From positions 1-37,396 of IMG/VR virus record IMGVR_UViG_3300029950_000053: DNA of 37,396 bases; one strand, written 5' to 3'. This document shows, one piece after another, positions 1,735 through 37,396 of this stretch. Origin of the DNA: a virus. A program made the position numbers and the translations under genes. Position 1 is the first letter of the stretch. The number at the start of each line of letters is the position of its first letter. The notes beneath the pieces are model-generated. The model was not told the origin of the DNA and did not search any database. It was given only the letters and a program-made list of their open reading frames with translations.

Positions 1735-3944
1735 ACGAATGGTTCACCGCTCAGGAACTCATCTGCGTCGCCGGCCTGCCGTCATCCGAACGCGGCATCC
1801 GTAAAAAGGCGGCCGCCGAGGGCTGGACTTCCCGCCCGCGCGCCGTCGGCAAAGGCAACGAATACCACATCAGCAGTCTGCCCGCCGATACCCAGCGCGC
1901 CATCCGGATCAGCCAGGCGAAGAAAGCGGCCGCCGCCGCTAAGAGCAGAATGCCGGAGCTGAGCGCAGCGGAAGACGCGCGCCGCCTGAAAAACGAAAAG
2001 GCGCTGGAGCGTTACCGCAAACTGAGCGCTAACCAAAAGCGCATCGTCGACGCCAAGCTTGAACTGCTCGACGCCGCCAAAGCCTTTCACGCCAGCAGCG
2101 GCCTGAGCAAAGGCGCGGCCTATACCGAGTTTTCGCGCTTATACAAAGCCGAAGAAATCACCATCGACCCGATCGTCCGCGCGGCCCAGCCCGCCTGTAG
2201 CCGCCCGCGCCTTTACGACTGGGAAAAAGCCCTGCATGAACACGGCATCGACGCGCTCGCCGGTGATAAAGGCAAAGCCCGTCGCGGCAGCGGCGCGATC
2301 GACAGCCAGCCCGAACTGGCCGGCTTTATCACCGGTATGATCGTCGCGCACCCGCACATCAAAATGAGCGTCCTTAACAAAGCCATTGAAGCGGAGTTTG
2401 CCGGAACCGGCACCACGCTCGTCGGCCTGCGTACGCTGGAGCGCTGGGTTAACCAGTGGAAAGATGACAACCGCCAGGTGTTCACCGCCGTCACCAATCC
2501 TGACGCCTGGAAAAACAAATACATGGACGCCCAGGGCAGCGCCTCCGAGCACGTCATCGGCCTGAATCAGCTCTGGGAGTTCGACTCAACGCCCGCCGAT
2601 CTGATGCTCACAGACGGCCGTCACAGCATTCTGGGCGTCATCGACGTTTACAGCCGCCGCACCAGTTTTGTCGTCATGCCTACGTCCGACAGCAAAGGCG
2701 TAGCCAAAGTTATCCGCCGCGCGATCCTGAGCTGGGGCGTCCCCGAAACCGCCAAAACCGACAACGGCGCTGACTATAAATCGAAGTGGATTAAACACGT
2801 ATTCCGCGCGCTCGGCGTTAATCAGGAATTCTGCCCGCCGTTTCAGGGCTGGAAAAAGCCGCACATTGAGCGCGTATTCCGCACATTCGCCCATGACGTA
2901 GCGGAGCTGCTGCCCGGATTTATCGGCCACAACGTCACCGAACGCAAAGCCATCGAAGCGCGTAAATCATTCAGCGACCGCCTGCTTAAAAAGGACGAGC
3001 TGATCGAGGTGAAAATGAACGCTGCCGAGCTGCAGCAGTTCTGCAACGACTGGCTCGAACACGAATACCACACACGCAAACACGAAAGCCTAGGCCGCTC
3101 ACCGAACGCTCAGGCCGCGTTATACAACGGCAGCATCCGCACCGTTAGCGACGAGCGTCTGCTCGACGTCCTGCTCAGCGAACCGGCCGGCACCCGCACC
3201 ATTACCAAGGTCGGCATCAAACTTAACGGCGGCGTTTACGTTCACCCGCAGCTTGCAGCCCACACAGGCGAACAGGTCAGCGTGTTCTATGACGACGCCG
3301 ACATGGGCCGCATCTACGTCCACGATCTTGATGGCGAATTTATCTGCATCGCCGAAGACCCGGACATTACCGGCGTCAGCCGTACCGAGGTGGCTGCGCA
3401 GGCTAAGGCCATCCAAAAAGAAACCATTCAGGAAGAGCGCCGCCGCCTGAAAGCCGCCGCCGCCAAAGTGACTAAGCGCGACATCGCGCAGCAGATTCTG
3501 CAACACCGCGCCGACCAGGAACGCGAACAGAAAGTGCGCCACTTCCCGCGCCCGCAAAGCGAACACAGCAGCGAAGGCCTGATTGCCGCCGCCGCCGCGC
3601 TCAACGCGCAAGAAAACAACAGCACAACGCCTGAATGGTTCAACCATGACGAGGCCATGGCGAGCCTGAGCGCCGCTCTCAACGAACAACCTGCCACAGC
3701 ACCCCGGCAACTCGCCCCCGTTGTTAAACCCCTGTTTAACAAACAAGAGGTTAACCGGGGCTTAAACGTGCCAGATGACCTGGCCATGCGCTACGAGTTC
3801 TGGCTCCACATCGACCAAAAAATCAGAGAGGAAACCGCAACCACAGAAGAAACGAAATGGGCGCGCGCCTTCGCCAGCTCACACGCCTACAGCAGCGGAA
3901 AAATGCTTTGGGAAATGCGCCAGCCTAGCGCCGCGCAGCAATAA
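1731..3944 (+). CDS. A: Mu-type DDE transposase A
   Basis: 737 aa (Mu A is 663 aa). The N-terminal Mu-type DNA-binding region is at about residues 1-60 (WFTAQELICVAGLPSSERGI...). Helical end-binding domains follow. The RNase H-like catalytic core has D285 (LWEFDSTPAD), D344 (KTDNGADY) and E380 (KKPHIERVF), the DDE triad. A C-terminal beta-barrel (about 460-560, with VGIKLNGGVYVHPQL) and a long basic, alanine-rich tail follow, as expected for the part of MuA that contacts MuB and ClpX. It catalyses strand transfer of phage ends during integration and replicative transposition. It is the third gene of the early operon and is coupled to the preceding ORF by an ATGA overlap. Confidence 0.97.
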   Translation: MNEWFTAQELICVAGLPSSERGIRKKAAAEGWTSRPRAVGKGNEYHISSLPADTQRAIRISQAKKAAAAAKSRMPELSAAEDARRLKNEKALERYRKLSANQKRIVDAKLELLDAAKAFHASSGLSKGAAYTEFSRLYKAEEITIDPIVRAAQPACSRPRLYDWEKALHEHGIDALAGDKGKARRGSGAIDSQPELAGFITGMIVAHPHIKMSVLNKAIEAEFAGTGTTLVGLRTLERWVNQWKDDNRQVFTAVTNPDAWKNKYMDAQGSASEHVIGLNQLWEFDSTPADLMLTDGRHSILGVIDVYSRRTSFVVMPTSDSKGVAKVIRRAILSWGVPETAKTDNGADYKSKWIKHVFRALGVNQEFCPPFQGWKKPHIERVFRTFAHDVAELLPGFIGHNVTERKAIEARKSFSDRLLKKDELIEVKMNAAELQQFCNDWLEHEYHTRKHESLGRSPNAQAALYNGSIRTVSDERLLDVLLSEPAGTRTITKVGIKLNGGVYVHPQLAAHTGEQVSVFYDDADMGRIYVHDLDGEFICIAEDPDITGVSRTEVAAQAKAIQKETIQEERRRLKAAAAKVTKRDIAQQILQHRADQEREQKVRHFPRPQSEHSSEGLIAAAAALNAQENNSTTPEWFNHDEAMASLSAALNEQPATAPRQLAPVVKPLFNKQEVNRGLNVPDDLAMRYEFWLHIDQKIREETATTEETKWARAFASSHAYSSGKMLWEMRQPSAAQQ

Positions 3945-3948
3945 AAAA

Positions 3949-3966
3949 CGCCTGCGGGAACAGGCG
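3949..3966 (-). terminator. Stem-loop between A and B, terminator-like on the minus strand
   Basis: CGCCTG (3949-3954) and CAGGCG (3961-3966) pair around a 6-base loop. The plus strand has six A before the stem and no T-run after it, so only the minus-strand reading (stem followed by TTTTTT) looks like an intrinsic terminator. On the plus strand it may be an intercistronic mRNA hairpin separating transposase and ATPase expression. Confidence 0.45.
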
Positions 3967-3992
3967 AAAACAATCAACAGAGAGAAAAGAAT

Positions 3993-4712
3993 ATGACAAT
4001 CAACAGCATCGCGGGAATCACCAACGTAGCTCTGTGCAATATGACGCTTGAGCGCGCCATGAACCGCGCCCACAGCCTGCCGGGCATCGTCGTATTTCAC
4101 GGCCCGTCAGGCTACGGCAAATCCTTCGCGGCGTCCTACGCCGCCAACCGTCACCGCGCCTATTTTGTGCAGTGTAAAAGCACCTGGACACGCAAAGCAT
4201 TTTTACAGGCCATCGCCAAAGATATGGGCCTGTCACCAGCAGGAACCCTCAGCGAACTGACCGACCAGGTCTGCGAAGAACTGATGCTCTCCGGCCGCCC
4301 GCTGATCATCGACGAAGCCGACTACCTTGCCGATAAAAACCGCATTTTTATGGTGATGGATTTATACGAAGGCTCCCAGGCTCCGATCATGCTGATCGGC
4401 GAAGAACGCCTGCCGCAAAAACTCAAAGCCTACGAAAAAATAGATAACCGCATTTTAGAGTGGGCACCGGCGCAGCCGTGTAAGCCGCACGACGTACGCG
4501 AGCTTGCCAAAATCTACGCGCGCGGCATCAACATTGACGACGCGCTACTGGAAAATCTGCACGCAGCAACAAACGGCGTAACCCGCCGCATCTGCGTAAA
4601 CCTCGACAGCATCGAAAACTTCGCCCGCAACGAAGGCACCGACACCGTTACCCTGGCTAATTACGACCGCCCGTTTTTTACAGGCCAGGCACCGCGCGGG
4701 AGGGCCGCGTAA
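3993..4712 (+). CDS. B: MuB-like AAA+ ATPase, target-DNA activator
   Basis: 239 aa. Walker A is GPSGYGKS (residues 37-44); Walker B is LIIDEAD (104-110); a sensor-like stretch IMLIGEERLPQKL follows. Mu B is 312 aa; this protein lacks the N-terminal HTH appendage and is essentially an AAA+ core plus a C-terminal helical domain, as in many Mu-like phages. MuB binds DNA as ATP-dependent filaments, delivers target DNA to the transpososome and confers target immunity. It follows A after a 48-base gap that holds a hairpin. AGAGAGAAAAG precedes the ATG. Confidence 0.93.
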   Translation: MTINSIAGITNVALCNMTLERAMNRAHSLPGIVVFHGPSGYGKSFAASYAANRHRAYFVQCKSTWTRKAFLQAIAKDMGLSPAGTLSELTDQVCEELMLSGRPLIIDEADYLADKNRIFMVMDLYEGSQAPIMLIGEERLPQKLKAYEKIDNRILEWAPAQPCKPHDVRELAKIYARGINIDDALLENLHAATNGVTRRICVNLDSIENFARNEGTDTVTLANYDRPFFTGQAPRGRAA

Positions 4713-35852: not shown

Positions 35853-35992
35853 GAAGAAGGAAGCGACCGGCCTTCAGTTGCAGCTGTCGGCCGGTCACCA
35901 ATGCACAGTGCGATGTCCACTGTGAATCAGCCAAGGCTTCCCTGCTCGTCGACGAGCGCGCGAAGCCTATCAGAAAGTCATAGGTGATTCAC
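35853..35992 (+). promoter_or_regulatory. Structured leader of the com operon with alternative stems
   Basis: In 140 non-coding bases there are several perfect inverted repeats. Stem A is GACCGGCC/GGCCGGTC (35865-35872 with 35889-35896). Stem B is CACAGTG/CACTGTG (35904-35910 with 35918-35924). Stem C is GTGAATCA/TGATTCAC (35922-35929 with 35985-35992). Stem D is AGGCTTC/GAAGCCT (35934-35940 with 35962-35968), enclosing the 14-bp palindrome GCTCGTCGACGAGC (35944-35957). B and C share bases 35922-35924 and cannot form together. The right arm of C separates the AGG ribosome-binding site (35982-35984) from the com start, so C should repress com. There is no GATC site in this stretch. Confidence 0.7.
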
Positions 35993-35995
35993 ATG

Positions 35996-36196
35996 ATGCA
36001 CGAAGTGCGCTGCTGCAAATGCAGCAAACTGCTGGCCCGTGTCAGCGGTACAGGCAACGTCGAGGTTAAATGCCCGCGCTGTAAGTTCATTAACAAATTG
36101 AAGGCCGAGAGCCTCTTAGACGATCGCCAACTGGCGAATACCGATAGGAGGCTTCATGGCCAAAGAGAGAAAAGTACCCGGCAAGAACGGCTTTAA
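35996..36196 (+). CDS. com: Com-family translational activator (Cys4 zinc finger)
   Basis: 66 aa from the ATG at 35996 (the adjacent ATG at 35993 adds one residue). MHEVRCCKCSKLLARVSGTGNVEVKCPRCKFINKL has C6-x2-C9 and C26-x2-C29, the Mu Com zinc-finger layout and length (Mu Com 62 aa). In Mu, Com binds the mom mRNA and melts an inhibitory stem-loop so that mom is translated. Its last 41 bases overlap the next ORF in another frame. The start is preceded by the structured leader. Confidence 0.93.
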   Translation: MHEVRCCKCSKLLARVSGTGNVEVKCPRCKFINKLKAESLLDDRQLANTDRRLHGQREKSTRQERL

Positions 36197-36308
36197 ATAC
36201 GCGCCTAAATTCGGTGTCGTAGTGACCTGTCCTAACGAGGCGGAACAAGCCGCCGCCTTCGAACGGCTGAAAGCCGCCGGCTTTAAATGCAAGGTGGTGA
36301 CAATATGA
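36156..36308 (+). CDS. Small ORF between com and the ABC-GNAT gene
   Basis: 50 aa, with TAGGAGG (36145-36151) a few bases before the ATG. It is basic at the start (MAKERKVPGKNGFKYAPKFG) and then has an alpha/beta look (VVVTCPNEAEQAAAFERLKAAGFKCKVVTI). It overlaps com by 41 bases and the next gene by ATGA. Mu has no gene here, as com and mom overlap directly. Function unknown; its stop/start coupling may help drive translation of the ABC-GNAT gene. Confidence 0.72.
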   Translation: MAKERKVPGKNGFKYAPKFGVVVTCPNEAEQAAAFERLKAAGFKCKVVTI

Positions 36309-36321
36309 AAAAAGTCACCGT
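36293..36321 (+). promoter_or_regulatory. Stem-loop enclosing the start codon of the ABC-GNAT gene (candidate Com target)
   Basis: GGTGAC (36296-36301) pairs perfectly with GTCACC (36314-36319), extendable by two G-U pairs. The 12-base loop contains the ATG (36305-36307), and the left arm overlaps the AAGGTGG ribosome-binding site. This is the geometry of the Mu mom translation-inhibitor stem-loop that Com relieves. Two competing small hairpins lie just upstream (36264-36276 and 36270-36284). Confidence 0.65.
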
Positions 36322-37396
36322 ATCTCATCGCTGCTCTGACTTTGACAGCTTCCGGGCGGCATACGTGAAAAGCTTGTTTAACGTCGAGTCCGGCGCGAAC
36401 TTCGCTTTGACTGCCGAGCTGCCCGACGATACCGAAGACTGGCAAATCGGCGTTATTGTCGGCCCCAGCGGTAGCGGCAAAACGTCATTAGGCTCCGCTA
36501 TTTGGGACGATGTTAAACCCTGGGCTCCGCGCTGGCCGAAGAACCAGCCAATCATCGACGCGATAGGAAAGCGCCTTGAAGTTAAAGCGGCCGCCGCGAC
36601 TTTATCTGCGGTCGGTTTAGGATCCGTTCCCAGCTGGCTCCGTCCTTACCAGGTGCTGTCTAACGGCGAGAAATTTCGCGCCGATCTGGCCCGCTTGGTA
36701 TGCGACGCCCCCGACCGGGCTGTAGTTGATGAGTTCTCCAGTGTCGTCGATCGTCAGATAGCTAAAGTCGGGGCATTGGCATTCGGCAAAGCCTGGCGGC
36801 GTACTGGCGGCCGGGCCGTTTTGCTCAGCTGTCATTACGATATTCTCGAATGGCTCCAGCCCGACTGGTGGTTTGATACCGCCGACGGCTCTCTAAACCG
36901 GAGGGCGCTTAGGCGACCAAAATTCAGGCTCGACATATACGAAACCGACTGGCGTTACTGGCACCTGTTTGAGCCGCATCATTATCTGAAACTCCCCAAA
37001 ATGATCGCGGCCCGCAACTATGTCGGCGTCGTAAACGGCGAGCTGGTTGCTCACCTTGCGGTTAGTACGCGTCCGGGCCTGGTCGAAGCTCGGGCCTGCC
37101 GGCTGGTAGTGATGCCCGAATGGCAAGGCGCCGGGGTCGGTCTCCGGTTCTTGAACGCTGTCTGTGAACGCTGGCTAAAAGGTGAAAATCGTTTCGGACT
37201 AACAATGCCGATGCTGTTCCATACCTCTCACCCCGGTCTTGCCGATGCTCTTCGTCGTCAGCCAGGCTGGACTCAGGTCAGCGGCGCGCTACACGGCAGC
37301 CGGGCTAAAGGTACGGGCCTGAGTAATGCCACCTACGGCGGTCACTGGCGCGCGGTTCAGGGATTCCGCTACATAGGGAGGGGCTCGGATGTTTAA
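36305..37396 (+). CDS. ABC-ATPase fused to GNAT/Mom-like domain, putative DNA-modification enzyme
   Basis: 363 aa from the ATG at 36305 (ATGA overlap with the previous ORF). The N-terminal ABC ATPase has Walker A GPSGSGKT (53-60), a signature LSNGE (118-122), Walker B AVVDEF with D142/E143, and a switch histidine H177 in LLSCHYD. It is unusually compact, with only about 60 residues from Walker A to the signature. The C-terminal half (about 205-363) is GNAT-like, with motif A ACRLVVMPEWQGAGVGLRFL (QGAGVG at 274-279, the acetyl-CoA loop). The architecture recalls COG2401 (ABC ATPase fused to predicted acetyltransferase). Mu Mom (about 240 aa) is a GNAT-fold enzyme modifying adenine against restriction. 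Position after com at the right end supports that role; activity is inferred. Confidence 0.85.
   Translation: MKKVTVSHRCSDFDSFRAAYVKSLFNVESGANFALTAELPDDTEDWQIGVIVGPSGSGKTSLGSAIWDDVKPWAPRWPKNQPIIDAIGKRLEVKAAAATLSAVGLGSVPSWLRPYQVLSNGEKFRADLARLVCDAPDRAVVDEFSSVVDRQIAKVGALAFGKAWRRTGGRAVLLSCHYDILEWLQPDWWFDTADGSLNRRALRRPKFRLDIYETDWRYWHLFEPHHYLKLPKMIAARNYVGVVNGELVAHLAVSTRPGLVEARACRLVVMPEWQGAGVGLRFLNAVCERWLKGENRFGLTMPMLFHTSHPGLADALRRQPGWTQVSGALHGSRAKGTGLSNATYGGHWRAVQGFRYIGRGSDV

Follow-up and report, generated by a model that had tools for sequence, protein, structure and literature searches.

According to Iyer et al. 2021 (PMC7824862), citing Iyer 2013, acylation of a DNA base was predicted by Aravind's group for a GNAT enzyme coupled with an ABC ATPase. 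The family member cited in that passage, QAX98348.1, is the Aeromonas AsFcp_2 homologue recovered here (35.6% identity); base modification by the family is therefore already a published prediction there. The operon described below encodes an enzyme with full-length homology to this family (PHROG 11143) and the same domain order. The family passage of PMC7824862 names no com, free ParB tail or formyltransferase, whereas the present operon has all three.

In phage Mu, the Com-binding site is reported to be CC(N)2-3GAG, displayed in the loop of a hairpin (PMC6483171). Our operon resembles Mu com-mom in its right-end position, its Com homologue, the place of the hairpin in com, and a downstream gene that starts inside com. 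It differs in having two extra genes, and its enzyme carries an ATPase domain and is unrelated to Mom within the GNAT superfamily. Phage modules of a ParB-like protein and a DNA methyltransferase (phrog_498), like DNA-modifying systems with the ParB-like helpers DpdB and DndB, also combine a ParB-like protein with a DNA modifier, but in our operon the ParB domain has been lost and its C-terminal domain alone remains. The closest solved relatives of the formyltransferase-like product are the N-terminal domains of 10-formyl-THF dehydrogenase (FDH) and HypX. The His, Ser and Asp of the FDH triad are kept and the canonical Asn is absent; unlike those domains, the phage protein stands alone with 200 residues. 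The TmcA/NAT10 RNA cytidine acetyltransferases couple an ATPase to a GNAT that acylates a nucleobase, as proposed for the operon enzyme, but their ATPase is of the helicase type and their substrate is RNA. We know of no assay of DNA-base acylation by the ABC-GNAT family. A literature search on COG2401, the Mom mechanism, and links between formyltransferases and modification yielded little beyond PMC7824862, PMC6483171 and PMC6802093, and COG2401 was not mentioned. In this literature we found neither the linkage to com nor the freed ParB tail, the formyltransferase, the exchange with mom or the Com hairpins; Iyer 2013 may contain some of them.

A four-gene operon at the right end of a Mu-like prophage

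The window, that is, the whole analysed stretch of 37,396 nucleotides, corresponds to G000:C20:517862-555257 of a 4.15-Mb bacterial genome and is a prophage region. The Mu-like prophage (approximately 38.2 kb) begins 193 bp before the window and ends 629 bp after it, and the window therefore cuts the operon. Pfam recognised the Mu-like genes Mor, GemA and Gp27. The prophage ends read TGTAACC...GCTACA (TG...CA type) and are flanked by the 5-bp target duplication GAAAG, which agrees with a sister genome where the surrounding repeat element is present in an uninterrupted copy. The insertion lies in a host intergenic repeat element with many copies in the genus (flanks L002:2042-2659 and L003:5886-6090). 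The features of the operon are as follows.

35904-35993, plus strand: com leader, from folding and alignment of com upstream regions, including that of a com-mom phage
35904-35910/35918-35924, plus strand: leader hairpin CACAGTG/CACTGTG (folding, alignment)
35934-35968, plus strand: central leader hairpin AGGCTTC/GAAGCCT (folding, alignment)
35921-35929/35985-35993, plus strand: alternative leader pairing TGTGAATCA/TGATTCACA, which would cover the com start
35993-36196, plus strand: com, predicted Zn-ribbon translational activator (Pfam PF10122; PHROG 6417, translational regulator)
36102-36114, plus strand: Com-target-type RNA hairpin AGGC-CGAGA-GCCT inside com, with a loop that fits CC(N)2-3GAG (PMC6483171)
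36124-36137, plus strand: second hairpin TCGCC-AACT-GGCGA, corresponding in degenerate form to the second Com hairpin found in 33 of 63 loci
36146-36151, plus strand: strong Shine-Dalgarno AGGAGG of adp, read from the sequence
36156-36308, plus strand: adp, 50 aa (PHROG 28816), equivalent to the C-terminal domain of phage ParB-like proteins
36305-37396, plus strand: ABC-ATPase–GNAT fusion gene, 363 aa (ABC at about 1-200, GNAT at about 200-363), with an ATGA overlap with adp
37389-37991, plus strand: formyltransferase-like gene, 200 aa (PF00551; PHROG 9240), of which the first 8 nt (37389-37396) are in the window (L003:5251-5853)

The operon comprises four genes: com, adp, ABC-GNAT and the formyltransferase gene. 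The preliminary description had seen two, missing adp and the formyltransferase gene beyond the window. adp begins inside com, behind the AGGAGG. The formyltransferase gene overlaps the stop codon of the fusion and is the last of the prophage, ending 34 nt from the prophage end. The fusion gene was correctly placed at the position of mom; it lies behind com, with adp between, at the right end of a Mu-like phage. Com itself is a clear homologue (Zn_ribbon_Com, PF10122, 43.9 bits against a cut-off of 22.9) and is the only PF10122 match of the genome. The proposed control of the fusion by direct adjacency to Com did not hold, as the 50-aa gene intervenes. It is better stated that Com would act at the adp start, with the fusion translationally coupled behind adp.

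Pseudomonas phage Komp_PAO1_1 carries the same four genes. Deposited annotations miss com both in this phage (L004:19692-19925) and in Pseudomonas phage JD024 (L218:6041-6220), where com precedes mom and shares 70% identity over 206 nt with the com region of Komp_PAO1_1.

Genes and RNA structures associated with com

To describe what follows com, we surveyed 80 viral Com loci near the JD024 Com and checked representatives with Pfam. The next gene encoded a C5 methyltransferase in 30 loci, a D12 enzyme (Dam-type, N6-adenine) in 26 and an N4/N6 enzyme in 10, and it was mom in seven. DNA methyltransferase or mom genes thus stood behind com in 73/80 loci. The ABC-GNAT operon, for which the preliminary description had proposed a survey of Com neighbours, occupied this place once. 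With methyltransferases in 66/80 loci (L245-L324), Com seems to control the DNA-modification genes of phages in general, not only mom. None of these modification genes was present in the remaining six loci, two of which precede colicin-M-like genes. This suggests that Com also controls bacteriocin genes. Colicin-M-like genes behind Com in at least two loci mean that Com does not serve DNA modifiers exclusively. In L286 and L295, Com lies directly upstream of the colicin-M-like genes (PF14859, 90 and 171 bits), at about 3001-4100.

The exchange of enzymes in this slot was seen at base resolution in two Porphyromonas phages. BK068090 and BK068093 share 83-88% identity as far as the last base ahead of the mom ORF, and the alignment resumes for the final 93 nt. 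The segment enclosed by these flanks is mom in one phage and adp, ABC-GNAT and the formyltransferase gene in the other. On this alignment, the cassette precisely replaces mom. The HMM recognised no com in BK068090, and the evidence from the swap is therefore independent of com.

Candidate targets of Com were sought as strict hairpins, defined by at least four Watson-Crick pairs and a C-N2/3-GA loop, just past the second CxxC codons of com. They were found in 51/63 distinct loci, 33 of which had at least two, giving 84 in total. Synonymous codon resampling yielded 4.6 hairpins (maximum 12) and shuffled sequence 0.9. The hairpins comprise 14 stem types, while the loop is constant. The Mu hairpin, ATGC-CTGCGA-GCAT, occupies the equivalent place in com. 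Such hairpins occur in Com loci before mom (7/7) and before D12 (21/23) and C5 (25/27) methyltransferases. Activation of translation of the downstream genes is the predicted role of Com here. For the adp Shine-Dalgarno, pairing with the 3' side of the Com hairpin is predicted at -16.1 kcal/mol in the window; own versus swapped pairings over 32 loci gave no significant difference (p=0.11).

A structured RNA leader before com is suggestive. Compared descriptively, its pairing energy was -13.5 kcal/mol for own and -11.0 kcal/mol for swapped partners. RNAalifold on the uncorrected leader alignment returned short helices only, and the leader had no Rfam match. Since the middle hairpin mostly has a perfectly palindromic centre, it may alternatively be a DNA operator. 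No convincing further copies of the central dyad, as a repeated late-promoter operator, were found in the window. Conserved inverted repeats with mutually exclusive pairings precede com in mom and ABC-GNAT operons alike. Equivalent leaders are found, for example, at L004:19600-19705 and L218:5955-6060, with one pairing covering the com start codon.

The ABC-GNAT enzyme and its companions

The PHROG 11143 profile, labelled as unknown function, matched the fusion protein at 491.7 bits over residues 3-361 of 363. Pfam assigned ABC_tran (25.8 bits, cut-off 25) and Acetyltransf_1 (22.7 bits, cut-off 20.7). The complete ABC ATPase followed by a GNAT domain, as first described, was confirmed, with all motifs at the residues reported: Walker A GPSGSGKT at 53-60, signature LSNGE at 118-122, D142/E143, H177 of the H-loop and QGAGVG at 274-279. 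Most motif residues are invariant in an alignment of 71 relatives of the fusion, among them G53, S55, G56, G58, K59, L118, S119, G121, D142, E143, H177, Q274, G275, G277 and G279. The Walker A, signature, Walker B Glu, H-loop and GNAT QxxGxG motifs were invariant or nearly so in both the 20- and the 71-sequence alignments. AlphaFold2 modelled the whole protein with a pLDDT of 90.5. The GNAT part alone (pLDDT 89.3) adopted a canonical GNAT fold, which, together with the Acetyltransf_1 match, bears out the GNAT-like nature of the C-terminal domain. Its closest solved folds were RimI, Ard1, 1y9k and other CoA-dependent acetyltransferases, with TM values near 0.6. In fold, the modelled domain resembles protein and small-molecule acetyltransferases most, not Mom.

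The preliminary description had named the locus a variant com-mom operon with a Mom-type protein, and we rejected this on profile, HMM and fold comparison. Comparison of the ABC-GNAT and Mom family profiles by hhalign gave a probability of approximately 1% (E 0.057 over 58 columns). The Mom HMM found no Mom in the ABC-GNAT loci, Mu being its sole match among the first 103 loci. In the structural comparison with Mom that had been proposed, 8bv8 lay outside the top 50 PDB fold matches of the GNAT model, which were RimI/Ard1-type GNATs. The conserved ELNRMW and QSFADxR motifs of Mom have no counterpart in the ABC-GNAT family alignment. That the enzyme is simply a variant Mom is scarcely credible, although it shares the slot behind com and the GNAT superfamily.

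ABC-GNAT relatives are encoded in 348 viral contig stretches. The 80 nearest viral relatives carry adp in all cases, com in 66 and the formyltransferase gene in 60; these fractions describe this clade, because the 80 were picked by similarity to the window protein. The linkage of the enzyme to com thus recurs widely. The formyltransferase gene was present in 50/55 close loci with at least 600 nt of downstream sequence. The overlap of adp with ABC-GNAT is the same in 77/80 near relatives, the ABC-GNAT start lying 3 nt inside the adp stop. In 4/80, all four without com, a ParB-like gene is fused to adp. Among 80 distant relatives, a ParB-adp gene lies directly upstream in 68, and neither com nor the formyltransferase gene was found in any. 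The latter absence implies a loose link of the formyltransferase to the core reaction. In Streptococcus phages (L008, L009), ABC and GNAT are annotated as separate genes behind a ParB-like gene. Two genes are also annotated in Tenacibaculum pT24 (L012), but ParB/adp was not found there. The host family survey gave one full-length ABC-GNAT match in 44 genomes; the gene is phage-borne and sporadic, which was counted in favour of DNA acylation. A search of known defence families gave weak P-loop matches only.

adp is the most constant companion of the enzyme and its presumed partner. PHROG 28816 matches adp and also the C-terminus of a Gordonia ParB protein. An HMM for which only stand-alone adp proteins were used recognised 64/68 ParB proteins at their C-terminal ends (E<1e-3) and nothing in the reversed-sequence control. 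adp is therefore the tail of the ParB protein, released from the ParB domain. For the ParB-like proteins, the match was phrog_498, which represents the ParB portion of phage DNA methyltransferases.

The formyltransferase scored 72.5 bits with PF00551 (cut-off 26.1), and its closest solved relative is the N-terminal domain of FDH (87 bits). The motif was located in 64 phage copies. Every one of these retains the FDH-triad residues His and Ser, and 50 of them also gave a recognisable Asp motif. The Asn of the canonical N-x-H is absent in all 64, being replaced by Gly, Ala or Ile; FDH also lacks it. FDH hands the formyl group to a phosphopantetheine thiol, and a related HypX domain was proposed to make formyl-CoA (PMC6802093). 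This chemistry makes a supply of formyl-CoA to the GNAT possible.

Proposed function and its alternatives

With the above results in hand, we consider it likely that the operon acylates phage DNA bases in a Com-controlled modification slot and so protects them from restriction. The operon would be expressed late and add an acyl group to the phage's own DNA bases before packaging, doing what com-mom does by means of another enzyme. Com would bind the hairpin(s) in the 3' end of its own gene and open adp translation, and the enzyme genes would follow by coupling. Docking of ABC-GNAT onto the substrate complex would fall to the adp domain, which elsewhere forms the tail of a DNA-associated, ParB-like protein. 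The ABC domain may dimerise with ATP, clamp or remodel DNA and present the base, and the GNAT domain would use acyl-CoA to acylate an exocyclic amine. With one-carbon units taken from 10-formyl-THF, the FDH-like formyltransferase would provide the acyl group or build on it. The analysis shows the gene content and its conservation, the intactness of the active sites, the exchange with mom and methyltransferases in the slot, and the Com hairpins. The substrate, the acyl donor, the role of ATP, adp as a docking domain and the anti-restriction benefit are inferred.

DNA acylation is favoured because methyltransferase or mom genes occupy the slot in most Com loci, and because mom and the ABC-GNAT cassette are swapped in the Porphyromonas phages. 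The Com-target hairpin is conserved inside com, as in Mu, and the ParB-like partner belongs with the phrog_498 ParB portion. The published family prediction, the invariant ABC and GNAT catalytic motifs, and the phage-borne, sporadic gene argue in the same direction. Against it stand the modelled RimI/Ard1/1y9k-like fold, the lack of exclusivity of Com for DNA modification, the loose formyltransferase link and the degenerate second hairpin of the window.

The GNAT may instead elaborate an already modified base, as in phage hypermodification, with the formyltransferase capping the added amine. The retention of a one-carbon transfer enzyme in most close loci fits this, but we think it unlikely: we recognised no further modification gene in the operon, and the formyltransferase is missing altogether from relatives of the ParB type. 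It is rather unlikely, too, that ABC-GNAT acylates a host protein or tRNA in a takeover or toxin-like manner, with Com being used since the early product is toxic. The RimI/Ard1-type fold neighbours would suit such a target, and the colicin-M-like genes behind some Com would mean that Com guards other harmful products too. Phage GNATs modifying RNA polymerase or ribosomal proteins are described in PMC7824862. The exact replacement of mom by the cassette, the DNA modifiers otherwise in the Com slot (73/80) and the long-standing ParB-like partner argue against it. That the set is a passenger behind com by chance is very improbable; right ends are variable in Mu-like phages, but here gene order and overlaps are conserved, as are adp and com (80/80 and 66/80).

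Within the preferred DNA-acylation reading, a specific variant is that the FDH/HypX-like enzyme makes formyl-CoA from 10-formyl-THF and the ATP-driven ABC-GNAT formylates an exocyclic DNA amine. We hold this variant to be doubtful. If true, both the DNA base modification and this use of formyl-CoA would be new.

A phage enzyme family that is widespread yet uncharacterised is here linked to a particular genetic slot. Com apparently exerts general control over modification enzymes that can replace one another, and the ABC-GNAT operon is one of these. A ten-year-old prediction becomes directly testable, as Komp_PAO1_1, a phage of the laboratory strain P. aeruginosa PAO1, has the whole operon. If DNA acylation is true, the operon would provide a new DNA modification with ATP-coupled installation, relevant to restriction and to modified-DNA tools.
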